Positions 19,373 to 42,312 of a DNA stretch of 47,100 nt are shown here, piece after piece. The first letter of the stretch is position 1; each line of letters begins with the position of its first letter. The translations under genes were made by a program, and so were the position numbers. Below the pieces are notes generated by a model, which saw nothing but the letters and a program-made list of their open reading frames with translations, was not told the DNA's origin and searched no databases. The DNA comes from Sphingomonadales bacterium (GTDB taxonomy: Bacteria > Pseudomonadota > Alphaproteobacteria > Sphingomonadales > Sphingomonadaceae): NCBI GenBank assembly GCA_017309275.1, contig JAFKLT010000093.1, positions 1 through 47,100 of the forward strand. The letters run 5' to 3'.

Positions 19373-21654
<2,282 letters not shown>

Positions 21655-23625: not shown

Positions 23626-23649
23626 TCCCTCCCGGAAGGAGAAGCAGAC

Positions 23650-27364: not shown

Positions 27365-27977
27365 TCCCTGGACCCGAGACGGTAGCGAACGCGCAACGGT
27401 ACGATGGTGCGACCGGACGGCCATATCAGGCGGCCGGTCATCACCACCCAGGCGACGGTGCATGATGGACAATTGCATGCTTGAACGTGCGATCTTCATC
27501 CATTGAGTGCCGGATCGGAAATCTTGGACTGACCTCGCGTCACGGCCTGCTTGCACTGGCTATCGATCCGTAAGGCCTGCGCCATTGGCATGCGAACTCC
27601 AAGGATCGGCTTCTGCGACGCTTGCTCGCAATGGCTATCGGTCTCGTGTGTTGGCTGACTCGCAGCATCGGTGCTCGCGGGACGGTTAGCCGCGGCCATA
27701 TCGACGTCGAGTATCGGTCACGCCAGCCTGGAGCAGCGGCCCGCAAGCAATGGTCTCGAGTGGCGCGGCGGCGAACGATGATCGATCCCGACAAGGCGGC
27801 ATTACTCCGGAACTCCCACGCCGGTGCAGCGCTCAGGCTGGATCGCGCGAGAAATTTCGAGGGGTATCGCGCCGAGCTGCGTATTTGACTTAGTGCCCGT
27901 TCCGATTGGGGGATTCCGACGGCCATGAAACCATTGCCCTGTCGCCTACGCGCCCGGCCTGGACGGCTGGGGATGAC
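27365..27977. other. Gap between copB and fixL
   Basis: About 610 bp with no gene I can support. GGTGGTGAT at 27357-27365, over the copB stop, pairs with ATCACCACC at 27440-27448 and may form a long-range stem. Two related segments, TGCTTGCACTGGCTATCG (about 27547) and GCTTGCTCGCAATGGCTATCG (about 27620), look like a degenerate repeat. An 88-codon plus frame (27622-27888) shows no recognisable domain. The fixL promoter is expected near the right end. Confidence 0.4.
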
Positions 27978-29522
27978 ATGATCCCCGAAGACAATTCGGT
28001 AGCGTGGCGCGACGACGTCCGCGAAATCGAGGCGCTATCGGAGCTCATGCTTCGCGAGGCCAGCGGCTATGTCGTCGTCTTGCTCGATCCCGCCGGCACC
28101 ATCCGCGCGATCAATGGCGAGACCGAGAGGAAGGGACTTTGGTCGAGCGCCGATCTGTGCGGCCGCTCGCACGAGATTTTCTATCCGCCCGATGAAATGG
28201 CGAACGGCCGGCCTGAAGCCGATCTGGCGGCGGCCCTCGCGCAGGGTTCCCTCGAGCGTGAGGCTTGGCGCGTGTGCCGTGATGGAACCGAATATCTCGC
28301 CAGGCTGACGATCAATGCCCTGAAAGATCAAGCGGGTGTGATTCGCGGTTTCGGCAGCATCGTGCGCGACATCACCGAGGATGCGGCAATGCGCGGCTCG
28401 ATCGAAGCCCGCGAGCGACATCTGCAGTCGATTCTCGCGACCGTTCCCGATGCCATGATCGTCATCGACGAGCGGGGGCGCATAACCTCGTTCAGCGCTG
28501 CGGCCGAGCGATTGTTCGGTTATGGCGAGAGCGAATTGCTTGGCCGCAATGTGTCCTGCCTCATGCCGCGGGCGGACAGTATCAGGCATGACGAATATAT
28601 CGGCCATTATCTCGAAACGGGAGAGCGCCGAATCATCGGGATCGGCCGCATCGTGGTCGGGCAGCGCCGGGACGGTTCGACTTTTCCAATGGAATTGTCG
28701 GTCGGCGAGGCGGGGGGGCCGGAAGGGCGCATCTTCACCGGCTTCATTCGGGACCTGACGGAAAAGGAACATGATGAGCTGAGGCTCAAGGAATTGCAGG
28801 CCGAGCTTGTGCATGTCTCGCGGCTGAGCGCGATGGGAACGATGGCCTCGACCTTGGCCCATGAGCTTAACCAGCCGCTGACTGCCATTGCCAACTATCT
28901 GGAGACGACGCGGGATCTTGTTGACGGGGAAGGGGATATACCGCGGGATATCCTGCACGAAGCGCTGACGGAGGCCGCCAATGAGACCCTCAGGGCAGGC
29001 TATATTGTTCGCCGCCTCAGGGATTTCGTAGCTCGGGGCGAGGTGGAAAAGACCGTAGAGGATTTGCCGCGCCTGATCGACGAGGCAGGCAAGCTGGCGC
29101 TTATCGGTGCCCGGGAACGCGGGGTCCGCAGCTTTTTCACCTTCGACCCGGCCGCGACACCTACGCTCGTGGACCGCGTCCAGATCCAGCAGGTTCTGGT
29201 CAACATCATGCGCAATGCCATTGAAGCGATGGCGGACTCCGAAGTGCGGGAACTGCGCGTTTCCACCAGGCTGCGGGCCGACGAGATGATCGAGATTGCG
29301 GTAGAGGACAGCGGTCCCGGCATTGCGGAGGACGTGATACCGCGGTTGTTCCAGGCTTTTGTCAGCAGCAAATCGGACGGCATGGGGCTCGGCCTGTCGA
29401 TCTGTCGGACGATCGTTGAGGCTCATGGCGGACGGATCTGGGTCGAGGACGGTCCAGGCGGTGGAGCCGTGTTCCGATTTACCCTGGTTCACGCAAAGCT
29501 GGAGGAAGAACATGCAGGATAA
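27978..29522 (+). CDS. fixL: Oxygen-sensing haem-PAS histidine kinase FixL
   Basis: 514 aa from the ATG at 27978; a TTG at 27906 is in frame but less likely. A first PAS domain spans about residues 20-135 and a haem-PAS domain about 145-265. The latter has the FixL haem-ligand motif RHDEYIGHY (His204) and GIGR with distal-pocket Arg224, followed by RRDGSTFPMELS. The kinase H-box is TLAHELNQPL (His295). The ATP domain has NIMRNAIEAM, DSGPGIA and GMGLGLSI. Oxygen binding should inhibit the kinase. No TM segments are seen, so it is soluble. It overlaps fixJ by 11 bp. Confidence 0.94.
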   Translation: MIPEDNSVAWRDDVREIEALSELMLREASGYVVVLLDPAGTIRAINGETERKGLWSSADLCGRSHEIFYPPDEMANGRPEADLAAALAQGSLEREAWRVCRDGTEYLARLTINALKDQAGVIRGFGSIVRDITEDAAMRGSIEARERHLQSILATVPDAMIVIDERGRITSFSAAAERLFGYGESELLGRNVSCLMPRADSIRHDEYIGHYLETGERRIIGIGRIVVGQRRDGSTFPMELSVGEAGGPEGRIFTGFIRDLTEKEHDELRLKELQAELVHVSRLSAMGTMASTLAHELNQPLTAIANYLETTRDLVDGEGDIPRDILHEALTEAANETLRAGYIVRRLRDFVARGEVEKTVEDLPRLIDEAGKLALIGARERGVRSFFTFDPAATPTLVDRVQIQQVLVNIMRNAIEAMADSEVRELRVSTRLRADEMIEIAVEDSGPGIAEDVIPRLFQAFVSSKSDGMGLGLSICRTIVEAHGGRIWVEDGPGGGAVFRFTLVHAKLEEEHAG

Positions 29523-30144
29523 GCGCCTCATTCATCTGGTCGATGACGAAGAGGCCATCCGGAAGTCAGCCGGATTCATGCTGCGGACGGTGGGGTTCGA
29601 GGTACGGACCTATGCGAGCGGCGTGGAATTTCTGAAGCTGGCACGCACGGCCGAGACTGGATGTGTGCTTCTCGACGTTCGCATGCCTGAGTTAGATGGG
29701 CTTCAGGTCCAGTCGGAAATGGCGCAGCGCGGCATCAATATGCCGGTCGTCGTCCTGACCGGTCATGGCGACGTCACTCTCGCGGTGCAGGCGATGAAGG
29801 CGGGCGCAGTGGATTTTATCGAGAAACCCTTCGAGAAGGCATCGCTGCTTGAGGCTATCGACCGCGGATTCGCGCGTATCGACCGGGTCGATGTCCGAGC
29901 GACGGAAGAAGCCGAAGCGCAGGTCCGGATCGGCGTCTTGACGCCCCGCGAGAAGGAGGTTCTCGATGGGCTCGCGCGAGGCTATCCCAACAAGACCATC
30001 GCCTATGATCTAGGCGTTTCTTCGCGAACCGTCGAAGTCCACCGGGCAAGCCTGATGAGCAAGTTGGCTGTCCGCAGTCTTTCCGATGCGCTCCGGATTG
30101 CATTTGCTGCGGGCCTTGGTCGCAGCGAAGCCAAACTGGGATGA
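29512..30144 (+). CDS. fixJ: Response regulator FixJ
   Basis: 210 aa from the ATG at 29512, with GGAGG 8 nt upstream. A receiver domain (phospho-acceptor Asp55 in LLDVRMPELDG; switch Thr in VLTGHGD; Lys in EKPF) is followed by a LuxR-type HTH (LTPREKEVLDGLARGYPNKTIA...SSRTVEVH). It is the partner of the overlapping FixL. In rhizobia FixJ activates fixK and low-oxygen respiration genes. No fixK or cbb3 oxidase genes lie in this window, so its targets here are unknown. Confidence 0.95.
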   Translation: MQDKRLIHLVDDEEAIRKSAGFMLRTVGFEVRTYASGVEFLKLARTAETGCVLLDVRMPELDGLQVQSEMAQRGINMPVVVLTGHGDVTLAVQAMKAGAVDFIEKPFEKASLLEAIDRGFARIDRVDVRATEEAEAQVRIGVLTPREKEVLDGLARGYPNKTIAYDLGVSSRTVEVHRASLMSKLAVRSLSDALRIAFAAGLGRSEAKLG

Positions 30145-30152
30145 TTACGTAG
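30145..30152 (+). promoter_or_regulatory. FixJ-box-like site TTACGTAG
   Basis: Directly after the fixJ stop and 67 bp before the next receiver gene. It matches 7 of 8 bases of the GTAMGTAG core that I recall for Sinorhizobium FixJ. Similar TACGTA cores occur at 7544-7551 (exact, minus strand), 22034-22040 and 38408-38415. A 6-bp core can arise by chance in 47 kb, so this is tentative. Confidence 0.3.
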
Positions 30153-30218
30153 CGACTGAGATACGCGGTTCTGGAATGCTGCACTCACGGAGAATCGATT
30201 TTCGGATGCTCGCCACTC

Positions 30219-30617
30219 ATGTCTGTGCACATCGGGCAATCGTCCCGTCACCCCTTCACGATATTGGTCTCGGACGACGACCCGGGCGTTCGCCGTTCGA
30301 CGCAATTGATGCTGCGGGCCCAGGGATTTCGGGTCCGGGCCTATACAAGCGGCAGTGCACTATTGGCCGATCCGCGATCGCTTCATGCCGATTGCCTTGT
30401 CGTCGACTTTCGCATGCCGGACATCGACGGCCTGTCGCTCCTGGAACGCTTACGCGCGAAGGGCTGGTGCGGTTGCGCGATCATGATCTCGGCCTATCAT
30501 GACGACGCGCTGGAACGTGAAGCGAGGCGCGTTGGATTCGAGCATGTCATTCCAAAGCCGTTGATCGCGCGTGCACTGCTCGAGGCGATCGCTTGCTCCG
30601 CAAGGAATCATGGCTGA
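30219..30617 (+). CDS. Stand-alone receiver-domain response regulator
   Basis: 132 aa containing only a receiver: acidic pocket VSDDDPG (residues 17-23), phospho-acceptor Asp63 in VVDFRMPDIDG, Ser/Tyr switch MISAYHDD and Lys in IPKPLI. The closest style is the FixJ/NarL receiver group. There is no output domain, so it may act as a phosphate sink or adaptor (FixT- or CheY-like) for FixL. It is 74 bp downstream of fixJ. Its end overlaps the convergent MFS gene by 10 bp. Confidence 0.85.
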   Translation: MSVHIGQSSRHPFTILVSDDDPGVRRSTQLMLRAQGFRVRAYTSGSALLADPRSLHADCLVVDFRMPDIDGLSLLERLRAKGWCGCAIMISAYHDDALEREARRVGFEHVIPKPLIARALLEAIACSARNHG

Positions 30618-31913: not shown

Positions 31914-32252
31914 TCACATATGCTCGTGCTTCATCGGCATGTCTTTCGGTTTGTCCGCAGGCTTCGAAGTCCCCATGCCGCCCGTGGCGGGCATGGGCTT
32001 GTCGTTGCCGCCGCATCCACCGCCGGACTGATCCGGCATCTTTTCCATGCCCTCGCGGTGATCTTTCATCATCTTGTCGTGCATCTGCTGTCCGCCATGG
32101 TCCATGCCGTGGCGATGCTCGTCGGCGGGCTTCTGGGCCGGCGCGGTCGCGGCCGGCTTCTTCGGCGGCCCTTTGCTCTCGTCGGCGAGGACCGGCATCT
32201 GGGTCAGGGCGAGGAGGCCAAGAACCGTCAGAACAGGGGAAATCTTGCGCAT
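31914..32252 (-). CDS. Met/His-rich exported protein, putative copper binder
   Basis: 112 aa from the ATG at 32252 (GGAG site). A signal peptide (MRKISPVLTVLGLLALTQMPVLA) is followed by a Lys/Pro-rich linker. A metal-ligand-rich tail follows, with DEHRHGMDHGGQQMHDKMM, DHREGMEKM, a GGGCGGN Cys and a final KHEHM. The composition resembles periplasmic copper-chelating proteins, but no named family is recognised. It sits between a Csp-like gene and a strong terminator, so it ends a copper-handling transcription unit. Confidence 0.75.
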   Translation of the reverse strand: MRKISPVLTVLGLLALTQMPVLADESKGPPKKPAATAPAQKPADEHRHGMDHGGQQMHDKMMKDHREGMEKMPDQSGGGCGGNDKPMPATGGMGTSKPADKPKDMPMKHEHM

Positions 32253-32404
32253 GATATGTCTCCATTCGAAATCTTTGCTTTGTATCGACGCCGAGTCGGA
32301 TCGGAGCCGCTGTGCTCGATATGCTGCACCGAACGTCCGGATCGAAATACGTGAAGCCCACATGCTGATCTCTCGGCCAAAGAAAATCGGAACGCCGTGT
32401 GCTG

Positions 32405-32845
32405 CTATGAAGACATGACCATCATGCCGCACCCCTCGGCACAGCGGCGGCATAAGTTCGCGCAGCGCAACAGTTGTGCGTCACCCGCGAACGCAGCGCA
32501 GTTCTCCGCGCACAATCGGCAGATCTGCTCGCAAGCCTGGCAAAGGACCCCATGGGCCGGAGAATTGCGAAGCAGCGATTGCGCGGTCGTGAGGCAAATC
32601 CCTGCGCAATCGGCAAGAACAGCCATGACCCCCGGAGCGGCCTTGTCGCCACCCTCTTCGAGGCAATGGCGCGCGGCTTCGATGCAGCTTCGATGCGTTT
32701 CCAGGCACAACGCCGCGCAATCGGCAAGCGGCATCGCATGGGAATCGGGCATTCCTCCGCCGGGAGGTGGGTCTTCGGCGCGCGCGGTGCCGACGAGCAT
32801 TGTCAGGGCAAGCCCGGTCTCCAGAATCGATCGCCTCTCAAGCAT
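32405..32845 (-). CDS. Exported four-helix-bundle copper-storage protein (Csp1-like)
   Basis: 146 aa from the ATG at 32845 (GGGAG 7-8 nt upstream). The N-terminus MLERRSILETGLALTM looks like a Tat signal. The mature part holds 15 Cys (43, 47, 54, 61, 80, 84, 102, 105, 109, 112, 116, 128, 132, 135, 139) spaced as CxxxC/CxxC along helices. This is the pattern of Csp proteins, which store many Cu(I) ions inside a four-helix bundle. An exported form fits the periplasmic copper oxidase nearby. It is distinct from cytosolic Csp3 by its signal. Confidence 0.88.
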   Translation of the reverse strand: MLERRSILETGLALTMLVGTARAEDPPPGGGMPDSHAMPLADCAALCLETHRSCIEAARHCLEEGGDKAAPGVMAVLADCAGICLTTAQSLLRNSPAHGVLCQACEQICRLCAENCAAFAGDAQLLRCANLCRRCAEGCGMMVMSS

Positions 32846-32932
32846 GAAAATTCTCCCATTGAATCGAGCCAAGCGGCCGAAGCCTCCATCCTTTCGGAAA
32901 AATACGCGCGAGCGTGTCGGATGACATGGTCA

Positions 32933-33337
32933 TCACCGGTCTGTTGCCGCGTCGAGACGGGCGCGCTCCATGCGCGTATTCTCCCAAGGCCAATGACCAT
33001 TGATCTCGACGCCCAGCGAAATGCTCAGGAAGGTGCGGACAAACACGAGGCCCGCGAGCACGAAAAGGTCGTTAAGCGTAGGGTTGATCACCAGTGACTT
33101 CACGATGTCGCCGGCTACGAGAAACTCAAGGCCGAGCAATATGCTGCGACCGAGTGTCGATCGGAACGGACGATAGGCTTCGGCATAGAGGCCTCGGCAG
33201 GCCTGACGGAGAAACGTCGCGGTCGCCAGCGCGGCACCCACCAGGATGGTTGCCGTGCCGCTCAGTTCCAGGATAACCACGGCGAGGCGGAACAGGCTCT
33301 CGAGCCAATGTCCGCTTCCGCCGTCAATGGTGATCAT
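32933..33337 (-). CDS. DUF1622 inner-membrane protein
   Basis: 134 aa from the ATG at 33337, with AGGAG 8 nt upstream. Three predicted TM segments carry the DUF1622 signature: LGRSILLGLEFLVAGDIVKSL, then VLAGLVFVRTFLSISLGVEI and GHWPW. The family's function is unknown. Its start overlaps the end of the heptahaem cytochrome gene by 14 bp, so it belongs to the same operon as the electron-transfer genes. Confidence 0.88.
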   Translation of the reverse strand: MITIDGGSGHWLESLFRLAVVILELSGTATILVGAALATATFLRQACRGLYAEAYRPFRSTLGRSILLGLEFLVAGDIVKSLVINPTLNDLFVLAGLVFVRTFLSISLGVEINGHWPWENTRMERARLDAATDR

Positions 33338-34037
33338 ACCAGCCTCTCCTGCGAATATTGTTGAAACTGTCAGTCGTGTGACAGGCATAGCATTGTTCTA
33401 CGGTCGCCCGCTCGCCTGCGGCGCGCTGCGAAACCATGCTGAAATGCTCCATATAGTGGCTCGGCGGCGCCCGGTGGCATTCGGAGCAGTTCCGGGAATT
33501 GGTCGAGGGATGCCGGTAGCCCTCGACGCGCCAGCTGTCGGTCGCGTGGCAACTCGCGCAGCGCGTTCCGAAGAGGCCCAGATGAGGGTCGCGAATGGAA
33601 TGGCAACCAGCACAGGCGAGCACGCCTGTCACCGCACCGCCCGCGGTTGTGGCGGCGGGGCGCTGCGACCATATTCCCGGTTTGAACAGGGCCTTGTGAT
33701 CCATGCGAATGAGGCTCTGTCTGCCCGCATGCTCGACGTGGCACGAGGTGCATTGCGAGGCCGAGGCGTGGAATTGGGTCGATTGCTTGTTTCCGAAGTC
33801 GGTCGCGGCATGACAACTCTTGCAAGTCTCCCCCGTCACACCAGCGATGGGGGTGTGGCAGTTTCGGCACGATCCTGCGAGGCTGCGGTGGGCTTCGGAC
33901 AGGGGGCCCGGCGAAACGAGCTGCGCGACCACGCCGGCCTGAGGCGGCGCGTTCGACCGCGACAGCGCCGGTAGCCCAAGCAGCACGACGAGCAGGCTGG
34001 TCGCAAAAAGGGCCGGAAGCAGCCAGTGGCGCATCAT
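33324..34037 (-). CDS. Heptahaem c-type cytochrome
   Basis: 237 aa from the ATG at 34037. An N-terminal anchor/signal (about residues 3-25) is followed by seven CxxCH haem c sites at residues 57, 72, 96, 142, 160, 184 and 216. Additional His (HxxEH, FHAS, RHPS, HYMEH) can serve as distal ligands, which suggests low-potential bis-His haems as in cytochrome c3/NrfH-type carriers. It faces the periplasm. It overlaps the upstream cytochrome b gene by 4 bp and DUF1622 downstream. It probably takes electrons from cytochrome b and passes them to a periplasmic or external acceptor. Confidence 0.88.
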   Translation of the reverse strand: MMRHWLLPALFATSLLVVLLGLPALSRSNAPPQAGVVAQLVSPGPLSEAHRSLAGSCRNCHTPIAGVTGETCKSCHAATDFGNKQSTQFHASASQCTSCHVEHAGRQSLIRMDHKALFKPGIWSQRPAATTAGGAVTGVLACAGCHSIRDPHLGLFGTRCASCHATDSWRVEGYRHPSTNSRNCSECHRAPPSHYMEHFSMVSQRAAGERATVEQCYACHTTDSFNNIRRRGWYDHH

Positions 34038-34759
34038 GGCCAGCGAAGACCAAAATAGACCGCGGCCGCGATATGGAGAATCACGAGCGCGTAAAGCAGC
34101 GAACCGGCCACGATATGAAACCATCGCCAGCGTGCGAAAAGTACTCCCGTTACTTCCTCTGCCCGCACGGCATATTCGGTGTCGGAAATGGCCGCGGCAA
34201 GCTTGATCGCATCCTGCGGTGGTGGTTCAGCGGGCTGGTTTGCGCGGGTGAAGACATATCGAAGCCAGCGTGGCGGCTCCTGCGTCTCCCCAATTTCGCC
34301 CGGCGCCGCCGGAATGTCCAGAAAGGCCGACTGGAGCGAAGCCAGTTCCGACTTGCGGCCGCGCAAGGCCCTTGCAAGTTCGCCGAGAAGATAGCGCCCG
34401 GCAAATCCGCTTGCAACGGTGAGGAGGAGGAGGCCGGTTAGCATGAGGCCCAGCGGACTCGCGAACTTGTGCGCGGTGTGAAGGAGGGCGAAGAAAGCTC
34501 CCAGAACGCCAGAATAGATATGAACGGCAAGGAGCGTCGGCTTACGCACATAGCGCGTAATCCGACGATCGAGCGGCGGGATATGTTTGGCCGCCACATA
34601 GGGAAGCGTCAGCAGCATGCACAGGGCCGCAAGGATGCCGAGCAGACCGCCGCCGAGGCTACCGGGGAAGCGTGGGGATGCGTGAACGAGAAATCCGGCC
34701 GGAAAGACCAGAATGAACCCCACCAGAAGCACCATCAATATGTCGCCGCGTTCGCGCAT
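34034..34759 (-). CDS. Membrane cytochrome b-like protein
   Basis: 241 aa with five predicted TMs (about residues 8-26, 38-56, 76-97, 103-121, 212-237). His80 and His94 (AVHIYSGVLG...ALLHTAHK), and His215 and His229 (WFHIVAGSLL...VILHIAA), are each spaced 14 apart, the arrangement used to ligate haem b across a membrane. Residues 122-211 form a soluble loop. No close named family is recognised. Its start overlaps the reductase stop by 1 nt (TGATG) and its stop overlaps the heptahaem gene. It likely carries electrons across the membrane. Confidence 0.75.
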   Translation of the reverse strand: MRERGDILMVLLVGFILVFPAGFLVHASPRFPGSLGGGLLGILAALCMLLTLPYVAAKHIPPLDRRITRYVRKPTLLAVHIYSGVLGAFFALLHTAHKFASPLGLMLTGLLLLTVASGFAGRYLLGELARALRGRKSELASLQSAFLDIPAAPGEIGETQEPPRWLRYVFTRANQPAEPPPQDAIKLAAAISDTEYAVRAEEVTGVLFARWRWFHIVAGSLLYALVILHIAAAVYFGLRWP

Positions 34760-36636
34760 CAGGCTTCAACCACGATCGGCTTGCCGCTGCCTTTGGCCTG
34801 GCAAGCCAATATATAGCCGTTCGCCTTGTCTTCCGGCGCCAGGCCCGCTTCGTTCGCCATCGTGACTTCACCGTCGAGCAGCTTGGTGACGCATAGTCCG
34901 CAGTCTCCGGTGCGGCAGGAATAGGGTATCTCGACGCCAACCCCCTCGGCGGCTTCGAGCACGGTCTGATCGCCAGCCAGGGCGGCGGACACACCCGACA
35001 GAGCGAACGTCACGGAAGCTTCGGCAATCCTTGTGGAAGGCGCGGACGGAGGCTGTACCGTGCGACTTGCATCGTTGCCGGGCGCGCTGGGCGCGTCGAC
35101 TGGATCGATGGGCAGCGATGCGGGCCCAAAGGCTTCGGTATGAAGTTGCACTTCCGGCACGCCGAGCTCGGCGAGCTCCGCCTTCATCGCCGCCATCATC
35201 GCGGGGGGACCGCACAGGTGGATGCGGCGGCGCGCGATGTCGGGGACGGCCGAAAGCAGCATGTCCCGCGTCAGGGGGCCGACGGCGCCATGCCAGACCG
35301 TCCCTGGCGAGCGCTCCATCGCGGCGAAGACATGCAGATTGTCATGAAGCCGCTCGAGTCGCTCGATTTCGTCACGGAAGACGAACTCGTCCGTGGACCG
35401 AGCGCCATAAAGGAAGAATATCTCGCCCGGCCAGGCGGTGTCTGTAAGATAGCGCAATACCGACATCATCGGCGTGATCCCGACACCGCCCGCGATGAGC
35501 ACGATACTATCCGCGGTCGTCCCAGTGAAGGTGAAGGAGCCGAAAGGGCCCGAGGCTCGAACAAGATCCCCGACAATGAGCGTGTCGTGCAGGTGGCGGG
35601 ACACCGCTCCCTGCTCCTCGCGCTTCACCGTCAGTTCGACATAGGCCCGCTGCGTCGGCGACGAAGCGATAGTGTAGGATCGGCGGGCACGCTTGCCGGG
35701 CTCGGGCTCGACCTCGATTTGCAGAAACTGACCGGGCAGGAAATCGAAAGGCAGCCGGTCGGCTGCGGGATCTGCGAGACGGAAGGTCCTGATGGTCGGC
35801 GTCTCCCGGATGATCCGCGTCACCCGCAGCGGTCCGGACCAGGGCCGGGGCTTGCGCAGCGAAGCACCGGCCGGGGCGGGCGCGTTGCTTGGCGCGAGCG
35901 CTCCGGCCGTAGCGGCCTGCATCTCCGGAGCTGCGGCCGGCGACGGTTGCGTGTTGGCGACCTTCGCGGTTCCTTTCCTGGCTGCGACGATCTGACGGAT
36001 GCGCTTGAGACGAAGTAGCTGCAACGCGGCGAGGCCGGTACTCAGCAAGAGGAGGAACAGCATCAGCAGCAGGTGGGAGGGAGACAGGCCGAAAGGATGG
36101 GCCGCGTGCGTCTCGTCCGGCTCGATCGACAGGCGATCGCGGAACCAGTTCATCGCGGCGCCCGCCGGCTTTCCGGTCCCGGCGAGGGCCATCCGGGCAG
36201 CCGCACCGCTATCGAGAAGATCGCTGCCTTCGCGAAGATTGCGCACGGCGGCGATTTGCTCGGTCGCCGTTTCGGCGTGCGCGGCTGCGCGGGCGGCCTC
36301 GGAGATCAGCATCAGCCCTCGATGCGACCGTTGCTCGGCTTGCCGCAGCAGGGCTTGCCTCGCCGCGTCATCGAGTGCCGGTAGCGCGAGCAATTGCGAG
36401 AAGAAAGGAGACTGGCGGCGGCCGCCATGCTCGCCTTCCATCATTTCGCCCATCATCGATTGCATTTCGCCCGCGGGCTTCATCCCGGATGACGCCATGC
36501 TGCCAACCGCCACGCCGCCAGGCGGCGAGGCACTCCCATGATGGGCGGCATGCTCGTCGGCGTCCTCCGCATGGACGATCGATGCCGTCAGAAACGTCAT
36601 CGCCACGCACAGGCCGAAGCGGAATGATTTCTGCAT
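34759..36636 (-). CDS. Membrane-tethered FAD/NAD(P)H reductase with C-terminal 2Fe-2S domain and periplasmic Met/His-rich sensor-like domain
   Basis: 625 aa fusion. Residues 1-23 are a signal peptide. Residues 24-185 are periplasmic and rich in Met and His (MQSMMGEMMEGEHGG), with a helical segment. One TM spans 188-208, followed by LKRIRQ, which places the rest in the cytoplasm. There follow an FAD domain (RRSYT, 319-322), an NAD(P) domain (GGVGITP 383-389; CGPPAM 475-480) and a plant-type 2Fe-2S ferredoxin with Cys574, 579, 582 and 612. It resembles dioxygenase or HCR reductases, but the N-terminal half is unusual. It heads the cytochrome operon and probably feeds it electrons from NAD(P)H. 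Confidence 0.85.
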   Translation of the reverse strand: MQKSFRFGLCVAMTFLTASIVHAEDADEHAAHHGSASPPGGVAVGSMASSGMKPAGEMQSMMGEMMEGEHGGRRQSPFFSQLLALPALDDAARQALLRQAEQRSHRGLMLISEAARAAAHAETATEQIAAVRNLREGSDLLDSGAAARMALAGTGKPAGAAMNWFRDRLSIEPDETHAAHPFGLSPSHLLLMLFLLLLSTGLAALQLLRLKRIRQIVAARKGTAKVANTQPSPAAAPEMQAATAGALAPSNAPAPAGASLRKPRPWSGPLRVTRIIRETPTIRTFRLADPAADRLPFDFLPGQFLQIEVEPEPGKRARRSYTIASSPTQRAYVELTVKREEQGAVSRHLHDTLIVGDLVRASGPFGSFTFTGTTADSIVLIAGGVGITPMMSVLRYLTDTAWPGEIFFLYGARSTDEFVFRDEIERLERLHDNLHVFAAMERSPGTVWHGAVGPLTRDMLLSAVPDIARRRIHLCGPPAMMAAMKAELAELGVPEVQLHTEAFGPASLPIDPVDAPSAPGNDASRTVQPPSAPSTRIAEASVTFALSGVSAALAGDQTVLEAAEGVGVEIPYSCRTGDCGLCVTKLLDGEVTMANEAGLAPEDKANGYILACQAKGSGKPIVVEA

Positions 36637-36664: not shown

Positions 36665-37024
36665 TTACATATGCTTCATCGGCGCCGACTGATCGGTCGT
36701 GGTCTGATCCGCGGGCTGCATATTGCCTTGCCCCGCCCCACCCTTGCGCATCTCGTCATGGTCCATTTCCTGACGATGATGGCGCATCATTTCCTCGTCC
36801 ATCGCGTCATCTTCATGATCCATGGCATCGGGCGCGGCTGGCGCGGCGGATGAGGCATCGGTGGACGGCGTGGAACCAGCGCCACCGGCGGTTGCGTCGG
36901 GGGTTGCCGAGGCGGCGTCCGCGGCCTTGTTCTCGGCCTTGTCTCCACAGCCGGCGAGCGCGAGTGCCGCTGCGAGCGCGACACCATATCCAGCCCATTT
37001 CAGGTCGATTTTTCGGTTTGTCAT
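36665..37024 (-). CDS. Met/His/Asp-rich lipoprotein
   Basis: 119 aa with a lipobox LAGC (Cys26), an Ala/Ser/Thr-rich linker and a metal-ligand tail: AMDHEDDAMDEEMMRHHRQ, MDHDEM and a closing PMKHM. The tail resembles that of the protein at 31914-32252. It is a probable periplasm-facing copper binder. It lies 28 bp upstream of the reductase gene, behind a strong hairpin. No named family is recognised. Confidence 0.75.
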   Translation of the reverse strand: MTNRKIDLKWAGYGVALAAALALAGCGDKAENKAADAASATPDATAGGAGSTPSTDASSAAPAAPDAMDHEDDAMDEEMMRHHRQEMDHDEMRKGGAGQGNMQPADQTTTDQSAPMKHM

Positions 37025-37078: not shown

Positions 37079-37297
37079 TCATTTCGCGTCGCGCAGAATC
37101 CGCTGGCAGCGGCCGTGCGACAGGTTCATCGGATTGAAGCCCTGGCGTTTCATCTCGCCATGGTCATGGCGCTGATCGAGCCCCATCTTCTCTTCCATGG
37201 CCCGGCAGCTATCGACTTCGGCCTGAGTGGCCCGGGTCGTGACGCAGCCTCCGAGAAGGAGCGCGGGGGTGAGCAACAAAATGGAATATTTCTTCAT
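37079..37297 (-). CDS. Small lipoprotein, unknown function
   Basis: 72 aa with a lipobox LLGGC (Cys18). The short mature part has DSCRAMEEKMGLDQRHDHGEM and HGRCQRILRD, with His and two further Cys. AGGGG precedes the ATG. It is the first gene downstream of the CueR-type regulator (45 bp gap). Related short lipoproteins accompany copper genes, but I do not recognise a named family. Confidence 0.7.
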   Translation of the reverse strand: MKKYSILLLTPALLLGGCVTTRATQAEVDSCRAMEEKMGLDQRHDHGEMKRQGFNPMNLSHGRCQRILRDAK

Positions 37298-37342: not shown

Positions 37343-37759
37343 CTATTTTTTTGGTCTTCGTTTTTCCGCCAAGAATGCGATTATGTTGCAGTCGGAGACC
37401 GGCGCCTCTCGCGGGCAATTGTCGGCGAGGTCCTGCAGCACATCCCGAATCTCAGTCAGCTTCCTGACCCGCGTTTCGGCCTCCCGAACCTTGTCGAGCG
37501 TGATCGCAAGCACGGCCGCCGCGGTGGCGGTATCCGATGCCTTGAGGGTGAGAAGCTGGCGCGCCTGTTCGAGCGTGAATCCGAGTTCCTGCGACGCGCG
37601 AATGAAGTTGAGCCGCTCAAGGTCCCCGTCGCTGTAAAGGCGATAGCCGGCCGCGGTACGGCCCGGGGCCGGTAGCAAGCCCGTCCGCTCATAATAGCGT
37701 ATCGTATCGCGCCCCACGCCTGCGGCTTCGGCGAGCTTTCCGATCTTGTAGCTTCCCAT
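37343..37759 (-). CDS. cueR: MerR-family copper-responsive regulator (CueR/HmrR-like)
   Basis: 138 aa from the ATG at 37759; the longer frame upstream lacks coding character. The winged helix is YKIGKLAEAAGVGRDTIRYYERTGLL, with RLYSDGDLERL and a long dimer helix. The metal loop has Cys115 and Cys124 (NCPREAPVSDC), matching the Cys-x(7-8)-Cys pair by which CueR-type proteins sense Cu(I)/Ag(I). It is the first gene of the long minus-strand set reaching to DUF1622. A perfect dyad with a TTGACC -35 precedes it. Confidence 0.9.
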   Translation of the reverse strand: MGSYKIGKLAEAAGVGRDTIRYYERTGLLPAPGRTAAGYRLYSDGDLERLNFIRASQELGFTLEQARQLLTLKASDTATAAAVLAITLDKVREAETRVRKLTEIRDVLQDLADNCPREAPVSDCNIIAFLAEKRRPKK

Positions 37760-37781
37760 GACATCCGCTCGCTTGTGCAGG

Positions 37782-37803
37782 TTGGACCATGGTCCAAGGT
37801 CAA
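37782..37803 (-). promoter_or_regulatory. CueR-type operator/promoter
   Basis: TTGGACCATGGTCCAA (37782-37797) is a perfect 16-bp palindrome. On the minus strand it follows TTGACC (37803-37798), the same layout as the E. coli copA promoter, where the dyad fills an elongated spacer. The expected -10 (about 37773-37778) is weak. It lies 23 bp before the regulator start, so autoregulation is likely. No plus-strand gene follows. Confidence 0.7.
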
Positions 37804-37955: not shown

Positions 37956-38318
37956 TCAGTCCTTGCGAAGCTCGACGATATCGTTCTTGGCCAGCTTGCC
38001 TTCGGCGATCGTGACATGGGCGAAATGGTCATCGTAAATATGGTCGATGGTCACCTGGCCGACCCGCTTGCGATGGAAGGGAGCAACATTGCCCTTCGAT
38101 GCCACGGGACCCGGATGCCGGACGTTTCGATAGACTTCGAGCGTCTGGCCGACTTCGGCGCCATCGGCCTTGCCGATGCAGACCACGGTATTGCCCGCGC
38201 TGGTCTCGACGATCGAGCCCCGCATGAAGAAACTGTGCCCGATGCCCTGGGCGAACGCCGGGGCGGCCGCGAACATCGAAATGCCTGCCGCCGCGATCAT
38301 GATGCTTTTCCTGATCAT
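37956..38318 (-). CDS. Small exported protein of unknown function
   Basis: 120 aa with a signal peptide (ending APAFAQ) and a beta-rich body: GSIVETSAGNTVVCIGKADG, GQTLEVYR, a basic HRKRVGQVTIDHIYDDHFAHV and LAKNDIVELRKD. The alternating pattern (glycine turns, vyR, vG.v.i) is reminiscent of SH3/FlgT-C-like barrels, which is only a structural hint. GAAGGAG precedes the ATG. It lies between the copper regulator and the nucleotide operon and is transcribed separately. Confidence 0.65.
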   Translation of the reverse strand: MIRKSIMIAAAGISMFAAAPAFAQGIGHSFFMRGSIVETSAGNTVVCIGKADGAEVGQTLEVYRNVRHPGPVASKGNVAPFHRKRVGQVTIDHIYDDHFAHVTIAEGKLAKNDIVELRKD

Positions 38319-38376: not shown

Positions 38377-38453
38377 ACAGGACTAGGGTCCAGAGTCCAA
38401 GCTCGACATACGTAGTGTTCGCAACTTCGGAAAATACCTAGATATCGGCCGCT

Positions 38454-39353
38454 TTATCGATCGGGTTTAGCGAGGAGGCGCTGCACGCCTTCCGCGACGA
38501 CCGGCTGCAGGCTGATGGCGTTGCTGGAATGAGCGACAGCATCGGTACTGACGATACGCCCCGCCTCGGCGGACAGTGCCGCGAAGGCGCCGCGAGCGAA
38601 TAACGGATGCACGATGACGCATTCGGGCGGCGGAAAACCAGCCTCTCCTATTCCCCGCGCCGCTTCGATCAGCGTGCGGGCCGATGACGCGATATCGTCG
38701 ACCAGAACCGGGGTGCGCCCTGTATGCGCCGAGAGATCGGGTAGCGCGATCCTGACGTCGCGATCGCCCAATCTCAGCTTGCTGCAAACGGCGTGAGGGG
38801 CACCGGCGCGGCGTGCGATCGCGCTCGCCCATTGTTCGCTTTCGCTGTCGGGACCGATGATGAGCGGCCGCTCGACATGGGTTCTGATCCAGTCGGAAAT
38901 CGGCACGGCGGCATGCACGGCCTCTGCCGGAATATCATAGATGTCGCCGAGCGAGGCATATCGATGAAGATGGGGATCCGCCGTGACCAGCCAGTCGACG
39001 GCGCCCGAAATGCGGCGCGCGAAACTGCGCGAGCTGATTGCCTCGCCATTCTGAAAGCGCCGGTCCTGGCGCATATAGGCAAGATATGGGGCTACGAGCC
39101 CTACGCTGAGGGCGCCGAGCTCGCGGGCCGCGTCGGCTGCGATAAGAAGCGAAACCAGCTTGGTATCGGGGCGATCCAGCGTGCAGACGAGCACGATGTC
39201 GCGGCCGGCAACCTCGGAACGGAGCCGCAGATAGGTCTCACCGTCCGGAAATCTGCGGGTTTCGATCCGTCCGACCTCGCCCCCGAGCAGGCCCGCGAGT
39301 CCAACCGCGAACTTGCCGTTACCGGGCAGCGGCAGGAACATCGGCGGGGTCAT
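38454..39353 (-). CDS. Ribose-phosphate pyrophosphokinase-like protein with altered ribose-5-phosphate loop
   Basis: 299 aa from the ATG at 39353, which overlaps the upstream stop (ATGA). It is a PRPP synthetase fold: RRFPDGE (33-39), DRPDTK, RQDRRFQNGEAIS (95-107), DPH (126-128), SKLRLGDRD (191-199) and the loop VDDIASSART (218-227). Standard enzymes read DDxxDTxGT in this loop; here the glycine is Arg226 and the preceding Asp and Thr are both Ser. It may make or use PRPP from a different sugar phosphate. It ends the RNase/phosphorylase operon. Confidence 0.85.
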   Translation of the reverse strand: MTPPMFLPLPGNGKFAVGLAGLLGGEVGRIETRRFPDGETYLRLRSEVAGRDIVLVCTLDRPDTKLVSLLIAADAARELGALSVGLVAPYLAYMRQDRRFQNGEAISSRSFARRISGAVDWLVTADPHLHRYASLGDIYDIPAEAVHAAVPISDWIRTHVERPLIIGPDSESEQWASAIARRAGAPHAVCSKLRLGDRDVRIALPDLSAHTGRTPVLVDDIASSARTLIEAARGIGEAGFPPPECVIVHPLFARGAFAALSAEAGRIVSTDAVAHSSNAISLQPVVAEGVQRLLAKPDR

Positions 39354-40894
39354 CGGTCGGATAGCTCGAGAATGGGGCCAACGGCCTCGGCATAGGCCAG
39401 CGCATAGGCCAGTTCGCCCTGGCTTTCGGCGTGCACTGTGAGGAGGGGCGTTCCTGTTTCGACCGCGGAGCCGAGCCGGACGTGCATTTCGAGGCCGGCA
39501 CTTTTCGCGGCTGGCGCGCCTGCAAGCTTGGCGAGCTTGGCGAGCCTGCGATTGTCGATCGCCGAAACGTATCCCGGGCGCTGCGCAGTTATCACATGGC
39601 GATGATTCGACAGGGGCGGTGTCCGCATGCCGCCCTGCGCCTCGCAGATTCGCTGGAACTTGCTCCAAGCCGACCCGTCGGCCAGCACTTGAGCGGCCAG
39701 GGCCGCACCGGTACCGGGGCTGGCGCGGCCCGCGAGTTCGATGAGCGCGCCTGCCAATTCGCAGGCGCGGCGGGCGAGATCAGGGGGCGGATCGCGTCCC
39801 TCGAGCACAGCCAGGATGTCGCGCGCCTCGAGGGCAGGGCCGATTCCCCGACCGATAGGTTCGCGACCATCGCCTTGCATCACCTTGAGGATCAGGCCGA
39901 ACTCCGCTGCAACCTTCTGAAGCGCCCCCGAAAGTGCGGCAGCATCGGCGGGCGAGCGGACCTTTGCCGTCGGTCCGATCGGCATGTCGACGACGAGGTG
40001 CGTTGCGCCCGCCGCGAGCTTCTTGGACAGGACCGAGGCGACCAGTTGGCCCGCCGCATCGAGATCGAGCACCCGCTCGACACCGATGATGATGTCATCA
40101 GCCGGACTGAGGGAGACGGCGCCGCCCCACACGATGCATCCGCCTTCGTGGTCGACGACACGTCGGATCGCGCCGACGTCGAGATTCACGGGCGCGAGCG
40201 TTTCCATGGTGTCGGCCGTACCTGCCGGAGAGGTGATCGCTCGGGACGATGTCTTTGGCATGATGAGGCCCAGCGCGGCGACAATCGCGACCACGATCGG
40301 GGTGGTCCGGTTTCCGGGCAGGCCTCCCACGCTGTGCTTGTCGACGACGACGTCCGAACCCCAGGCCAGCCGCTCGCCGGACGCGACCATGGCACCGGTC
40401 AGCGCCACCGTTTCCGCATGATCCAGAGGGAAGGCGGAGCAGGCCGTTACGAAGGCGGACAGATGGACGTCGCTATACCGGCCAGCAACGATATCGTCGA
40501 CGATCGACCGAAAGGCCGCGCCATCGAGACGATTTCCATACACGCGACCGCGTAATGCTCCGAAGGAATCGATGGGCGGTGCGTGGCGCACGCTGACGGC
40601 ATCGCCGGGGGCGACCCCAAGCGCCGCGGCGGCTGATTCCGAAAGGCCGATCTCCCCCGGCGCGATCATTTCGCCGGACGAATGCAGGAGCGAGGCCAAT
40701 ATCTCCCGCTCCCCTGCCTGGATCAGCACCTGGCTGCGCGCCGCAAGACCTTCCGAGCGGCATATGTAGCAATCGGTTCGCATGACGACGGCCGGTTGCT
40801 GCTGTGGCAGGAACAGGCCGAGGGGCCGAGCCCGTAGGCGATGGGGTGCCATATTCTCCGACGCGGGTCCGGTATCCGGGACGGGGTGGGTCAT
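39350..40894 (-). CDS. AMP phosphorylase / thymidine phosphorylase family enzyme
   Basis: 514 aa, longer than DeoA (about 440) because of an N-terminal domain (residues 1-105) like that of archaeal AMP phosphorylases. Active-site motifs are KHSVGG (186-191) followed by LPGNRTTPIVVAI, and KTSSRAITSPAGTADTME (214-231). This matches the archaeal NMP-phosphorylase group, which converts NMP plus phosphate to base plus ribose-1,5-bisphosphate. The ATG at 40894 overlaps the RNase stop (ATGA). Thymidine phosphorylase activity is the alternative; the N-terminal domain and operon favour NMP. Confidence 0.9.
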   Translation of the reverse strand: MTHPVPDTGPASENMAPHRLRARPLGLFLPQQQPAVVMRTDCYICRSEGLAARSQVLIQAGEREILASLLHSSGEMIAPGEIGLSESAAAALGVAPGDAVSVRHAPPIDSFGALRGRVYGNRLDGAAFRSIVDDIVAGRYSDVHLSAFVTACSAFPLDHAETVALTGAMVASGERLAWGSDVVVDKHSVGGLPGNRTTPIVVAIVAALGLIMPKTSSRAITSPAGTADTMETLAPVNLDVGAIRRVVDHEGGCIVWGGAVSLSPADDIIIGVERVLDLDAAGQLVASVLSKKLAAGATHLVVDMPIGPTAKVRSPADAAALSGALQKVAAEFGLILKVMQGDGREPIGRGIGPALEARDILAVLEGRDPPPDLARRACELAGALIELAGRASPGTGAALAAQVLADGSAWSKFQRICEAQGGMRTPPLSNHRHVITAQRPGYVSAIDNRRLAKLAKLAGAPAAKSAGLEMHVRLGSAVETGTPLLTVHAESQGELAYALAYAEAVGPILELSDR

Positions 40895-42312
40895 TCGAGC
40901 ACCACTCGATCACCAAGGCCGGGTATCTGGCACGGCCAGCCGAGCTCGTCGCCGATGCGCCGCGCAAGAGCGGCCGCGGCATCGGGCTCACCATGGGTGA
41001 TGAACGTCATCCGGGGCGCCCGTACGAACTGGCCGAGCCACTTCAGTATCTCGTCGGCATCGGCGTGCGCGGACAGCATCGAAAGATTGCGCACCTCGGC
41101 TCGCACGGGAACCTGTTCGCCATGGATCTTGACGCTGGGAGCACCCGCCACCATTGCAGCGCCGCGCGTGCCGGACGCCTGGAAGCCGGCGAACAGAATG
41201 AGGTTGCGGCCATCGGGCGCATAACGTTTGAGATGGTGGAGAACGCGGCCACCTGTTGCCATTCCGCTTGCCGAGATAATGACCTTGGGCACCGGACTCA
41301 TTGTGAGCGCCTTGGACTCTTCGACATCGCGAACATAGCGCGCGACCTTGCAAGCGGCATCGCATTCCGCTTCGGTCAGCCTGTGGTCGCCGGCATGGCG
41401 GCAGAAGATGCCGCTCGCGTCGATTGCCATCGGGCTATCGAGATAGACGGGAACATTGCTGATCCGCCCTGCGGCGCGCAGGCGTGATAGATGATAGAGG
41501 ATGGATTGGGCCCGGCCGACGGCGAAGGCCGGAATGACCACGGTTCCGCCGCGGCGAACACAGCGCTCGATGGCATCGCCAAGGGCCGCTACGGCATCCA
41601 GCGCCTCATGGCTCCGGTTGCCATAGGTCGATTCGACGATCAGATAATCCGCTTCCACGGGAGGCGAGGGATCGAGCATGACCGGATCGTTGAAGCGGCC
41701 CAGGTCTCCCGAGAAGAGGATCGTGCGGTCACGCCATTTGAGTTCGACGAATGCCGCCCCGAGTATATGTCCGGCACGATGGAAGCGAAGTTCGGCGCCC
41801 CCTGCCACCGAACGATATGCCCCGAAGCGGACCGGATCGAGATAGTCGAGCGCCACCTCGGCGTCCTTCTTCGTGTAGAGAGGAAGCGCGGGCTTGTGGC
41901 GCGAATAGCCGTGGCGATTGGCGAACGCCGCATCATTCTCCTGGAGAAAGCCGCTGTCGGGCAAGAGGAGGCCGCAAAGGTCCGCGGTGGCGTCGGTGCA
42001 TAGAATCCGGCCGCTCCAGCCTTCCTTCACAAAGCGCGGAATATAGCCTGAATGATCGAGATGCGCATGGGTCAGAACGATGGTGTCGATGGCCCGGTGG
42101 TCAGAGAGCGCCGGCTCCCAATTTCGTTCACGAAGCTCACGACCACCCTGAAACAGGCCGCAGTCGATCATGATCTTCGCGCTGCGATCTCCGAGAAGAT
42201 ATCGCGAGCCGGTCACCGTACCCGCCGCCCCGAGAAACGCGATCGAGATTGCCTCGCCGGCGTCCCGTTCGCCCGCGCCGCCGAATGGCGCTCGCCCTTC
42301 CCCTGTCTGCAT
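40891..42312 (-). CDS. MBL-fold beta-CASP ribonuclease
   Basis: 473 aa. The metallo-beta-lactamase core has HAHLDHSG (His82, His84, Asp86, His87), the later GHILGAA and SGDLGRF. The beta-CASP insert shows PAFAVGRAQSILY, SASGMATGGRVLHHL and a C-terminal LSAHADADEI then THGEP. This set is typical of RNA exo/endonucleases of the YSH1/CPSF-like group (COG1236). It probably degrades RNA to 5'-NMPs. It is first in an operon with the phosphorylase and PRPP synthetase, joined by ATGA overlaps. Confidence 0.92.
   Translation of the reverse strand: MQTGEGRAPFGGAGERDAGEAISIAFLGAAGTVTGSRYLLGDRSAKIMIDCGLFQGGRELRERNWEPALSDHRAIDTIVLTHAHLDHSGYIPRFVKEGWSGRILCTDATADLCGLLLPDSGFLQENDAAFANRHGYSRHKPALPLYTKKDAEVALDYLDPVRFGAYRSVAGGAELRFHRAGHILGAAFVELKWRDRTILFSGDLGRFNDPVMLDPSPPVEADYLIVESTYGNRSHEALDAVAALGDAIERCVRRGGTVVIPAFAVGRAQSILYHLSRLRAAGRISNVPVYLDSPMAIDASGIFCRHAGDHRLTEAECDAACKVARYVRDVEESKALTMSPVPKVIISASGMATGGRVLHHLKRYAPDGRNLILFAGFQASGTRGAAMVAGAPSVKIHGEQVPVRAEVRNLSMLSAHADADEILKWLGQFVRAPRMTFITHGEPDAAAALARRIGDELGWPCQIPGLGDRVVLE

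Follow-up and report, generated by a model that had tools for sequence, protein, structure and literature searches.

We analysed a 47,100-nucleotide stretch of DNA from a Sphingomonadales bacterium (contig JAFKLT010000093.1 of GenBank assembly GCA_017309275.1, positions 1 to 47,100; hereafter the window), in which four overlapping genes on the minus strand encode a putative electron-transfer chain. The first three are called here F (34759–36636, 625 amino acids), B (34034–34759, 241 amino acids) and C (33324–34037), and the fourth (32933–33337) encodes a small membrane protein of the DUF1622 family (PF07784, E = 3.4e-22), which we treat as an accessory. Adjacent genes overlap by 1 bp (F/B), 4 bp (B/C, as ATGA) and 14 bp (C/DUF1622), in agreement with an earlier description made from the sequence alone (the sequence-only reading). 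F, B and C are likely to form a transmembrane module that exports electrons taken from NAD(P)H and is used in copper stress.

F joins a predicted periplasmic domain to a reductase and a ferredoxin

F begins with a signal peptide and has a single transmembrane (TM) helix (36016–36081), both read by eye from the sequence; the AlphaFold2 (AF2) model has a helix at residues 186–221. Between them lie an EHAAHH motif after the signal peptide (36538–36555), a Met-rich stretch that follows it, and a predicted periplasmic helical domain (residues 77–168, 36133–36408) that was examined with Pfam, Protein Data Bank (PDB) and fold searches and with the AF2 model. Pfam places FAD- and NAD(P)-binding domains at residues 271–485 (35182–35826; FAD_binding_6 at 1.3e-15, NAD_binding_1 at 4.7e-18) and a 2Fe-2S ferredoxin domain at residues 554–615 (34792–34977; Fer2 at 3.2e-16), all on the minus strand. 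With these three domains and four cluster cysteines F qualifies as an FNR–ferredoxin reductase, and both the cysteines (Cys574, 579, 582 and 612) and the FNR residues are invariant in alignment A3 (n = 28). The top NCBIfam match of F is a GbcB-type reductase, at 225 bits under the cut-off of 500.

H29, H32 and H33 of the HxxHH motif are each kept in 27/28 sequences, and the motif is a candidate metal-binding site. H188, at the outer end of the TM helix, is invariant (28/28) and M192 is found in 24/28. The 16 residues after the helix contain on average 3.9 Lys and Arg, compared with 2.0 in the 21 residues before it. This charge pattern puts the reductase part in the cytoplasm, where the sequence-only reading had it, although as a prediction rather than a demonstration. 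Pfam assigned no family to the N-terminal part of the window protein, and a few other members gave weak, scattered matches; there was no PDB sequence match below E 0.006, and Foldseek against the PDB returned nothing at E ≤ 0.001. An origin of the periplasmic domain from Spy/CnrX-like metal sensors was rejected, with a weak Metal_resist match in just 1/26 members (E 0.071). A tblastn search of plasmids with the N-terminal part alone found 4 records, because this region is too diverged for a single-sequence search.

B is a candidate cytochrome b and C carries seven haem motifs

The His pairs of B, H80/H94 and H215/H229, are each 14 residues apart (HX13H), and such pairs on TM3 and TM5 are a published signature for two b haems (He et al, 2017; PMC5566968). 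H26, H80, H94, H97, H215 and H229 are invariant in alignment A5 (28/28), and all 28 sequences hold at least two HX13H motifs, with the placement on TM3 and TM5 taken from the AF2 model and the alignment. The helices of the AF2 model (mean predicted local distance difference test score 84.7) and the charge pattern fit five predicted TM segments. Mean Lys plus Arg counts are 5.1 in loop 2 and 11.3 in loop 4, against 1.3 in loop 1 and 0.9 in loop 3, and predict that loops 2 and 4 are inside, with the H80/H215 haem on the cytoplasmic side and the H94/H229 haem on the periplasmic side.

Ferric_reduct (PF01794) matches B at E 1.2e-4 and 22.6 bits, below the Pfam cut-off of 28, and 1/28 members match it at E ≤ 0.01. 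Membership of B in Ferric_reduct, in the b561-like proteins or in DUF4405 was rejected at hhalign or profile probabilities of 0.5, 1.6 and 6%, with 10 sequences from PF01794 hits as the Ferric_reduct set for hhalign; distant relatives of B reach 61% against the DUF4405 profile. In two metagenome-assembled genomes (MAGs), from Hydrogenedentota and Planctomycetaceae, B has a C-terminal extension of ~ 270–290 residues, which we take to be DUF547-like (L085:2888–4450 and L095:6167–7801). H188 of F and H26 and H97 of B are invariant, lie at the predicted periplasmic edge and are surplus to two b haems; together they may form a third haem or metal site.

C has an N-terminal hydrophobic anchor or signal, and its seven CxxCH motifs and seven further His are invariant (26/26, alignment A4; His 51, 91, 104, 115, 153, 177 and 195 in A4 numbering, which is one too high). 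This is enough for seven haems with bis-His ligation, as we predict for all of them, and therefore suggests a conduit rather than a catalyst. Multiple CxxCH motifs with bis-His candidates make C a multihaem cytochrome c of the c3/c7-like kind. The source genome contains CcmE, so maturation of c haems is available, and on one plasmid ccm genes lie ~ 3 kb downstream of the module.

The sequence-only reading was correct on the order of parts in F (signal peptide, His/Met-rich domain, one TM, FAD/NAD reductase, 2Fe-2S ferredoxin), on the two His pairs of B, on the seven-CxxCH cytochrome and on the family of the fourth gene. It had also counted DUF1622 as a member of the system, which did not hold up: DUF1622 was seen in just 54 of the 92 loci described below, and is optional and outside the conserved core. 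Its suggestion that metal binding at the periplasmic domain may gate the chain stays a conjecture.

F, B and C stay together across several phyla

In all 92 B loci that we fetched, from several phyla, F lies upstream and C downstream of B, which bears out the earlier suggestion that these families belong together. The loci are 80 genome contigs and 12 annotated plasmid regions; in 80/80 contigs the three genes share a strand. The contigs are the best 80 of 203 confirmed B relatives in species genomes, found through one C-terminal B peptide pattern, and close relatives are therefore favoured. They are also redundant: at 90% B identity the 80 fall into 33 clusters, L067 and L022 are the same record, and the B of L030 is identical to that of the window and probably comes from the same genome. 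The contig end truncates F in L036, L039, L068 and L091, the last of which also has 2.2 kb between F and B; F is in two reading frames in L069, and C is truncated after six motifs in L032. The alignments hold 27 relatives of 34 non-redundant sequences for F (A3), 27 of 33 for B (A5) and 25 of 34 for C (A4); alignment A6 left out L081 and L085.

The spacing between the F stop and the B start ranges from a 4-bp overlap to a 5-bp gap in 81/88 loci, and B and C overlap by 1–4 bp in 82/88, both measured from the in-frame start nearest the previous stop, which leans towards tight spacing. The F–B–C layout is beyond chance. Over 22 sets, pairwise identities are correlated between the three proteins (r = 0.86, 0.91 and 0.88; 0/2000 permutations as high), as they are over the 17 sets outside the sphingomonads (r = 0.80–0.87), so the three genes have mostly travelled together. 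Gene content, linkage, invariant ligand residues and context were all computed.

A tblastn search of 72,556 plasmid records with B yielded 52 records and 57 places; a separate search with C yielded the same two totals, and the tallies agreed for the ten genera printed. Of the 52 plasmids carrying B, 26 are typed as conjugative; the module is also on plasmid pSLPG of Sphingobium sp. SYK-6. Among 289 genomes of the class, B was found at E ≤ 1e-5 in 8 and as a strong match in 3, and a full N-terminal F match was found in the same 3 genomes at the same place; two further matches to alignment A6 (G416, G505) cover ~ 70 residues only and are without B. A C-like match lies on the same contig within ~ 2 kb of B in 8/8 B-positive genomes of the class. 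C-like matches without B are common there (25/33 genomes), as is expected for multihaem cytochromes. Strong module matches occur in 3/36 genomes of the genus, including the source genome, so the module is rare. No relative of the module was found in a scan of viral contigs or in DNA-level plasmid searches.

In a Cyclobacteriaceae MAG (L091:3774–4712), B and C are separated by genes for a small membrane protein rich in His and for a protein that resembles isoprenylcysteine methyltransferase; in L023, genes for a DUF2933 protein and for a methyltransferase of this kind come after that of a P-type ATPase.

Copper genes are the commonest neighbours

Upstream of F on the same strand, with gaps of 28–54 bp, are genes for a small Met/His-rich putative lipoprotein (36665–37024; recognised from its translation, with weak lipoprotein matches below cut-off only), a small His/Met-containing putative lipoprotein (37079–37297; a homologue is somewhere in the locus in 38/80 loci) and a MerR-family metal regulator (37343–37762), and all three probably belong to the same transcription unit as F–B–C. 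PDB alignments of this MerR to CueR and CadR show that its two C-terminal Cys are kept, that there is no Cys in the region of CueR S77 and that its loop is one residue longer than that of CueR. In MerR regulators, the absence of a Cys at the position of CueR S77 is the pattern for monovalent ions. The window protein falls below the CueR, ZntR and MerR equivalog cut-offs of NCBIfam, and the metal is therefore not settled.

A pattern search of the window found a MerR-type operator, TTGACC-TTGGACCATGGTCCAA-CC, upstream of merR (37780–37803, minus strand); it is the only match in the window, against 0 in 100 shuffles. Similar sites precede merR in L022, L028, L035 and L072, that is, in 4/12 other loci, the pattern being short and its misses not proof of absence. 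A second site, a GGACC..AGTCC dyad, came from a dyad search across loci and lies upstream of a gene for a small secreted protein (37956–38318, minus strand). Written as GGGAC[CT]N[ACT]AGTCC, it occurs 32 times in 1.59 Mb of module loci, against 2.4 expected from base shuffles, and 32/32 occurrences in the 92 loci precede homologues of this gene (window site, 38380–38392). Both patterns were written after the sites had been seen, and the shuffle figures therefore overstate their rarity. Because the dyad stands before one gene only and resembles the site of merR, a MerR-type site is more likely, and its reading as a DosR or FixJ site was disfavoured.

On the other side of the operon, 32405–32872 (minus strand) encodes a Cys-rich four-helix copper-storage-like protein (PDB match RkCSP3, E = 5.4e-12) with an export signal read by eye; downstream of it, 31914–32253 encodes a short, secreted-looking Met/His-rich protein (ADEHRHGMDHGGQQMHDKMM...). 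The plus strand carries genes for a CopA-type multicopper oxidase (24702–26396; TIGR01480, 800 bits against a cut-off of 479) and for CopB, an outer-membrane copper protein (26216–27364; PF05275, 4.4e-65; the true start is probably further into the open reading frame), and for an aldehyde dehydrogenase and an AdhP-type alcohol dehydrogenase (22105–24675), which were assigned from family and profile matches. The aldehyde dehydrogenase–AdhP–CopA–CopB set is a probable operon in a Sphingobium nickel transcriptome, where CopA and CopB were reported to be up-regulated; the word "cytochrome" is absent from that text. The window also encodes two CusA/CzcA-type pumps and conjugation proteins of the TrbI and CagX kind. 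A YHS/HMBD P-type ATPase frame at 19373–20662 has just 429 amino acids, with the E1-E2_ATPase match at its end, and is probably interrupted. With CopA, CopB, both pumps and the copper-storage-like protein present, the label of copper island that had been given to the region is fair.

Across the 92 loci, the genes found near the module are CopA (57), the copper-storage-like protein (50), MerR (48), AdhP (36), aldehyde dehydrogenase (34), CopB (29) and RND pumps (11), as counted by BLAST at E ≤ 1e-12 with window or locus queries in flanks of up to 10 kb on contigs of unequal length. A P-type ATPase is near the module in 8/80 loci. The copper-island branch therefore occurs most often among copper genes and, less regularly, among genes linked to low oxygen or energy.

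Low-oxygen and energy genes near the module

The genes at 27906–30617 (plus strand) encode a FixL-like PAS histidine kinase, a FixJ-like regulator and a single receiver. The haem-PAS domain of the kinase matches FixL in the PDB at 2.6e-43, and the NCBIfam matches are 546 bits for FixL (cut-off 850) and 238 bits for FixJ (cut-off 255). In the same 92 loci BLAST found the receiver in 12, FixJ in 10 and FixL in 8, and a Glu-type dehydrogenase in 7, N-ATPase in 5, thymidine phosphorylase in 4 and [NiFe] hydrogenase in 3.

Individual loci fill in this picture. The Glu/Leu/Phe/Val-type dehydrogenase, a possible source of NAD(P)H, stands beside planctomycete, Nitrospirales and Legionella copies (L089:6477–7829, L097:15218–16501). 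Genes of the N-ATPase kind, named by gene order and sequence, lie upstream of F–B–C in 5/5 Legionella loci (L097, L100 and L104–L106). In L027, L101 and L103 (Alteromonadales and Dasania), [NiFe] hydrogenase genes are downstream of C, and a gene between the two in L103 (11503–12726) has no Pfam family at E ≤ 0.001. In Pontibacter, genes for type II GAPDH and glucan phosphorylase adjoin the module. A Qipengyuania copy (L187) has thymidine phosphorylase and ribose-phosphate pyrophosphokinase genes beside the module; in the window, genes for PRPP-synthase-like, thymidine/pyrimidine-phosphorylase-like and beta-CASP metallo-hydrolase proteins lie upstream of the operon at 38454–42312.

More distant relatives of B

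The B profile matched 28 of 299 genomes of the phylum at E ≤ 1e-5. In 30/30 fetched distant loci (29 places, 28 genomes; 1.5-kb flanks) a frame with at least 6 CxxCH motifs adjoins B. An F homologue is present in 18/30 of these rows, 6 of the copper-island type (5 places) and 12 with a short F, two of which (L205 and L215) were assigned from short matches of 41 and 69 bits; in the other 12/30 no F lies within the 1.5-kb flank. Where its start is readable (four proteins), the short F has one N-terminal TM and no periplasmic domain. Rows of the copper-island type have 7 haem motifs where C is uncut, and rows with a short F have 8–12. In three rows without F (the genomes of L110, L119 and L120) the partners have at least 21 haem motifs and fit the description of PCC3, one of the hypothesised porin–cytochrome clusters. 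The profile from alignment A5 matches PCC3-like loci, so labelled by published criteria and not by accession, at 5.8e-16 (G147), 1.0e-14 (G042) and 3.2e-14 (G246), and cytochromes with at least 21 haem motifs adjoin these B relatives. These sequence relationships make the copper-island module one branch within a wider family in which five-TM cytochromes b are paired with multihaem c-type cytochromes.

A model for electron export and its alternatives

We infer the topology, cofactor loading, direction, regulation and acceptor of F–B–C as follows. F, anchored in the inner membrane, would take hydride from NAD(P)H onto FAD in the cytoplasm, and its 2Fe-2S domain would release single electrons to B. 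B would carry these across the membrane from the H80/H215 haem inside to the H94/H229 haem outside, and C, at the periplasmic face, would take them up on seven bis-His c haems and pass them to a periplasmic acceptor. The path as far as C is drawn from named families and invariant ligands; the outward direction is favoured because an NAD(P)H reductase is linked to B. A crossing of the inner membrane through b and c haems had been proposed in the sequence-only reading; the linkage in 92/92 loci and the invariant His pairs give it good support, and the cytoplasmic position of the reductase stays a prediction.

In copper islands a MerR-family sensor of the monovalent-ion type would probably switch the module on, and it would work beside the Cys-rich Cu(I)-store-like protein, CopA/CopB and efflux of the Cus/Czc type. 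The module would most probably adjust the redox state of copper in the periplasm, by reducing Cu(II) that the His/Met-rich domain of F binds or presents and so making Cu(I) available for storage or export. Three features favour copper as the acceptor: the conserved metal-type motif on the reductase chain, the MerR gene, and the Cu(I)-store-like protein encoded nearby. Cu(II) ranks first among candidates for the physiological acceptor, although at less than an even chance. More tentatively still, the module may be a mobile, dedicated copper reductase of the periplasm that is powered by NAD(P)H and forms a reduce-and-store arm of copper resistance. F would then have two tasks, presenting copper on its HxxHH/Met-rich domain and supplying electrons by way of the b and c haems, and Cu(I) would be loaded into a periplasmic storage protein or efflux pumps at oxygen levels too low for CopA.

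Several points weigh against a copper-stress exporter of this kind. The topology and haem loading of the module are predicted, and since loop 4 of B, which is long at 86 residues, has a net charge of just +0.9, the orientation of B rests mainly on loop 2; Foldseek against the PDB gave no match for B at E ≤ 0.001 (a weak one to duodenal cytochrome b, E 0.47, was left unused). Among the 29 loci outside the sphingomonads and Caulobacter (L081–L109), CopA is near the module in just 16, and 9/29 lack CopA, CopB, RND, YHS-ATPase, MerR and the copper-storage-like protein (L085, L088, L089, L091, L094, L095, L101, L107 and L109, three of them on contigs < 7 kb). Distant relatives retain B and a multihaem C, and often have a short F that lacks the metal domain; in 13 wider regions around such relatives the copper marker queries found nothing, and the chain as such is therefore not specific to copper. 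Finally, a module that reduced Cu(II) in the periplasm would raise the level of Cu(I), the more toxic form, and would work against the CopA encoded nearby, an enzyme that uses oxygen to oxidise Cu(I). This conflict could be resolved if CopA serves with oxygen and F–B–C without it, or if Cu(I) is captured at once; the FixL/FixJ-like genes fit such a division but occur in few loci.

The low-oxygen neighbours could also mean that the module is a redox valve that rids the cell of surplus NAD(P)H in times of oxygen shortage, by passing electrons to acceptors in the periplasm or outside the cell (humics, metals or any oxidant); copper genes would lie nearby because copper turns to Cu(I) under the same conditions. 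The FixL- and FixJ-like proteins of the window would suit this, as would the recurrence of FixL, FixJ, receiver, AdhP, Glu-type dehydrogenase, N-ATPase, thymidine phosphorylase and [NiFe] hydrogenase genes in the counts above and the surroundings of the Pontibacter copy. We nevertheless think it unlikely: these genes vary by lineage whereas CopA recurs in 57/92 loci, the operon is headed by a MerR-family regulator, and a search of the window for FNR boxes gave 1 match against 2.4 expected, at 14510 and away from the operon, with none near it. Rather less probable is a chain in which C feeds a separate periplasmic terminal enzyme encoded elsewhere (a peroxidase, methionine-sulfoxide reductase or metal reductase), as a general supply of electrons for repair under copper stress. 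MsrP has the role of periplasmic partner for YedZ/MsrQ. YedZ/MsrQ works in a comparable way with a periplasmic partner (PMC3591440), and the apparent bis-His ligation of all C haems suits a conduit over a catalyst; no PF01794 match at E ≤ 0.001 was found in the source genome, so no MsrQ was detected there. The 12 annotated plasmid tables, which are incomplete, name no nearby peroxidase or methionine-sulfoxide reductase, and no systematic search for these was made.

Electrons might instead flow inwards, in the manner proposed for PCC3/PCC4: a donor in the periplasm, such as Cu(I) or Fe(II), would reduce C, and B would relay the electrons to quinone or F. He et al hypothesise inward flow to quinone (PMC5566968) for the PCC3-type inner-membrane proteins, to which B is related, and such a flow would detoxify Cu(I). 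However, all 92 loci link B to an NAD(P)H reductase that electrons leave one at a time, and the four-gene operon contains no porin gene. Reduction of NAD+ with electrons from Cu(I) is also uphill in terms of potentials, and we regard inward flow as very improbable. That F, B and C are mere neighbours in a mobile island, without a joint function, is the least credible of these alternatives: the islands are indeed mobile, as the conjugative plasmids attest, but in several phyla the genes stay linked, with start–stop overlaps, and a multihaem neighbour accompanies the distant B homologues in every fetched locus.

If electron export by F–B–C is correct, it would be a compact, plasmid-borne route from cytoplasmic NAD(P)H to periplasmic redox chemistry with a defined point of electron entry, F; for the related PCC3-type inner-membrane proteins the electron partner is a hypothesis. 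Bacterial copper resistance is usually described as efflux, sequestration and oxidation. The module would add a reductive branch, and the question of how Cu(II) in the periplasm turns into Cu(I) would become directly testable.

Comparison with known systems

The sequence-only reading could not match the arrangement to a system it could name. This holds for the full F–B–C unit, of which we found no description in the titles and abstracts of the open-access literature searched, but not for B, which is a profile relative of the inner-membrane proteins of PCC3/PCC4 (3e-14 to 6e-16). PCC3 and PCC4 of He et al (2017) are hypothesised clusters of unproven function that contain a five-TM protein with double HX13H (TM3 and TM5) and SGxxG beside periplasmic multihaem cytochromes (PMC5566968). 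B has the SGxxG of TM4 in 21/28 sequences and the WX3HX13H of TM5 in 27/28, and the Trp of TM3 in 0/28. Unlike those clusters, the F–B–C operon is without a porin or extracellular cytochrome (no porin lies between or directly beside the genes in the window, and none is named in the 12 annotated plasmid tables), and C has 7 haems where the periplasmic PCC3 cytochromes have a median of 21 (PMC5566968).

Parts of the module have probably been encountered before in Alteromonas. The HynSL hydrogenase cluster there (orf1/cyt/orf2/hynD/hupH) appears, by gene order, to contain the B and C of plasmid pAM1A3 as orf1 and cyt; these were reported to be unnecessary for maximal hydrogenase activity in E. 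coli, in passages that give them no function (PMC3102683). The word "cytochrome" is absent from the main text of the papers on the pAM1A3 island and on copper in Alteromonas.

GbcB/PaaE-type FNR–ferredoxin reductases have the identical order of FAD, NAD and 2Fe-2S domains and include the top NCBIfam matches of F, which differs in its added signal peptide, periplasmic domain and TM. Reductases of this type serve cytoplasmic oxygenases. CcoG is comparable in being a membrane redox protein that is proposed to supply Cu(I) and raise copper tolerance (PMC7558416), but it has two tetranuclear Fe-S clusters and an unidentified donor, whereas F–B–C has FAD, 2Fe-2S, b haems and multihaem c. Ferric-reductase-domain proteins (NOX, FRE, STEAP and YedZ/MsrQ) resemble the proposed chain in passing electrons from NAD(P)H through FAD and a pair of b haems, with HX13H motifs on TM3 and TM5, to an acceptor on the outer side. 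The four His are all retained in the long bacterial forms, and a figure legend of Zhang et al (2013; PMC3591440) names Ferredoxin/Fer2 as one of the domain extensions. In F–B–C, by contrast, the reductase is on a separately anchored chain with a ferredoxin, and the output goes to a seven-haem cytochrome. Set against PCC3 and PCC4, what the copper-island branch adds is F, an NAD(P)H–FAD–2Fe-2S reductase with a metal-type periplasmic domain; this dedicated reductase and the copper-island context distinguish the module, and the reductase is its new part.

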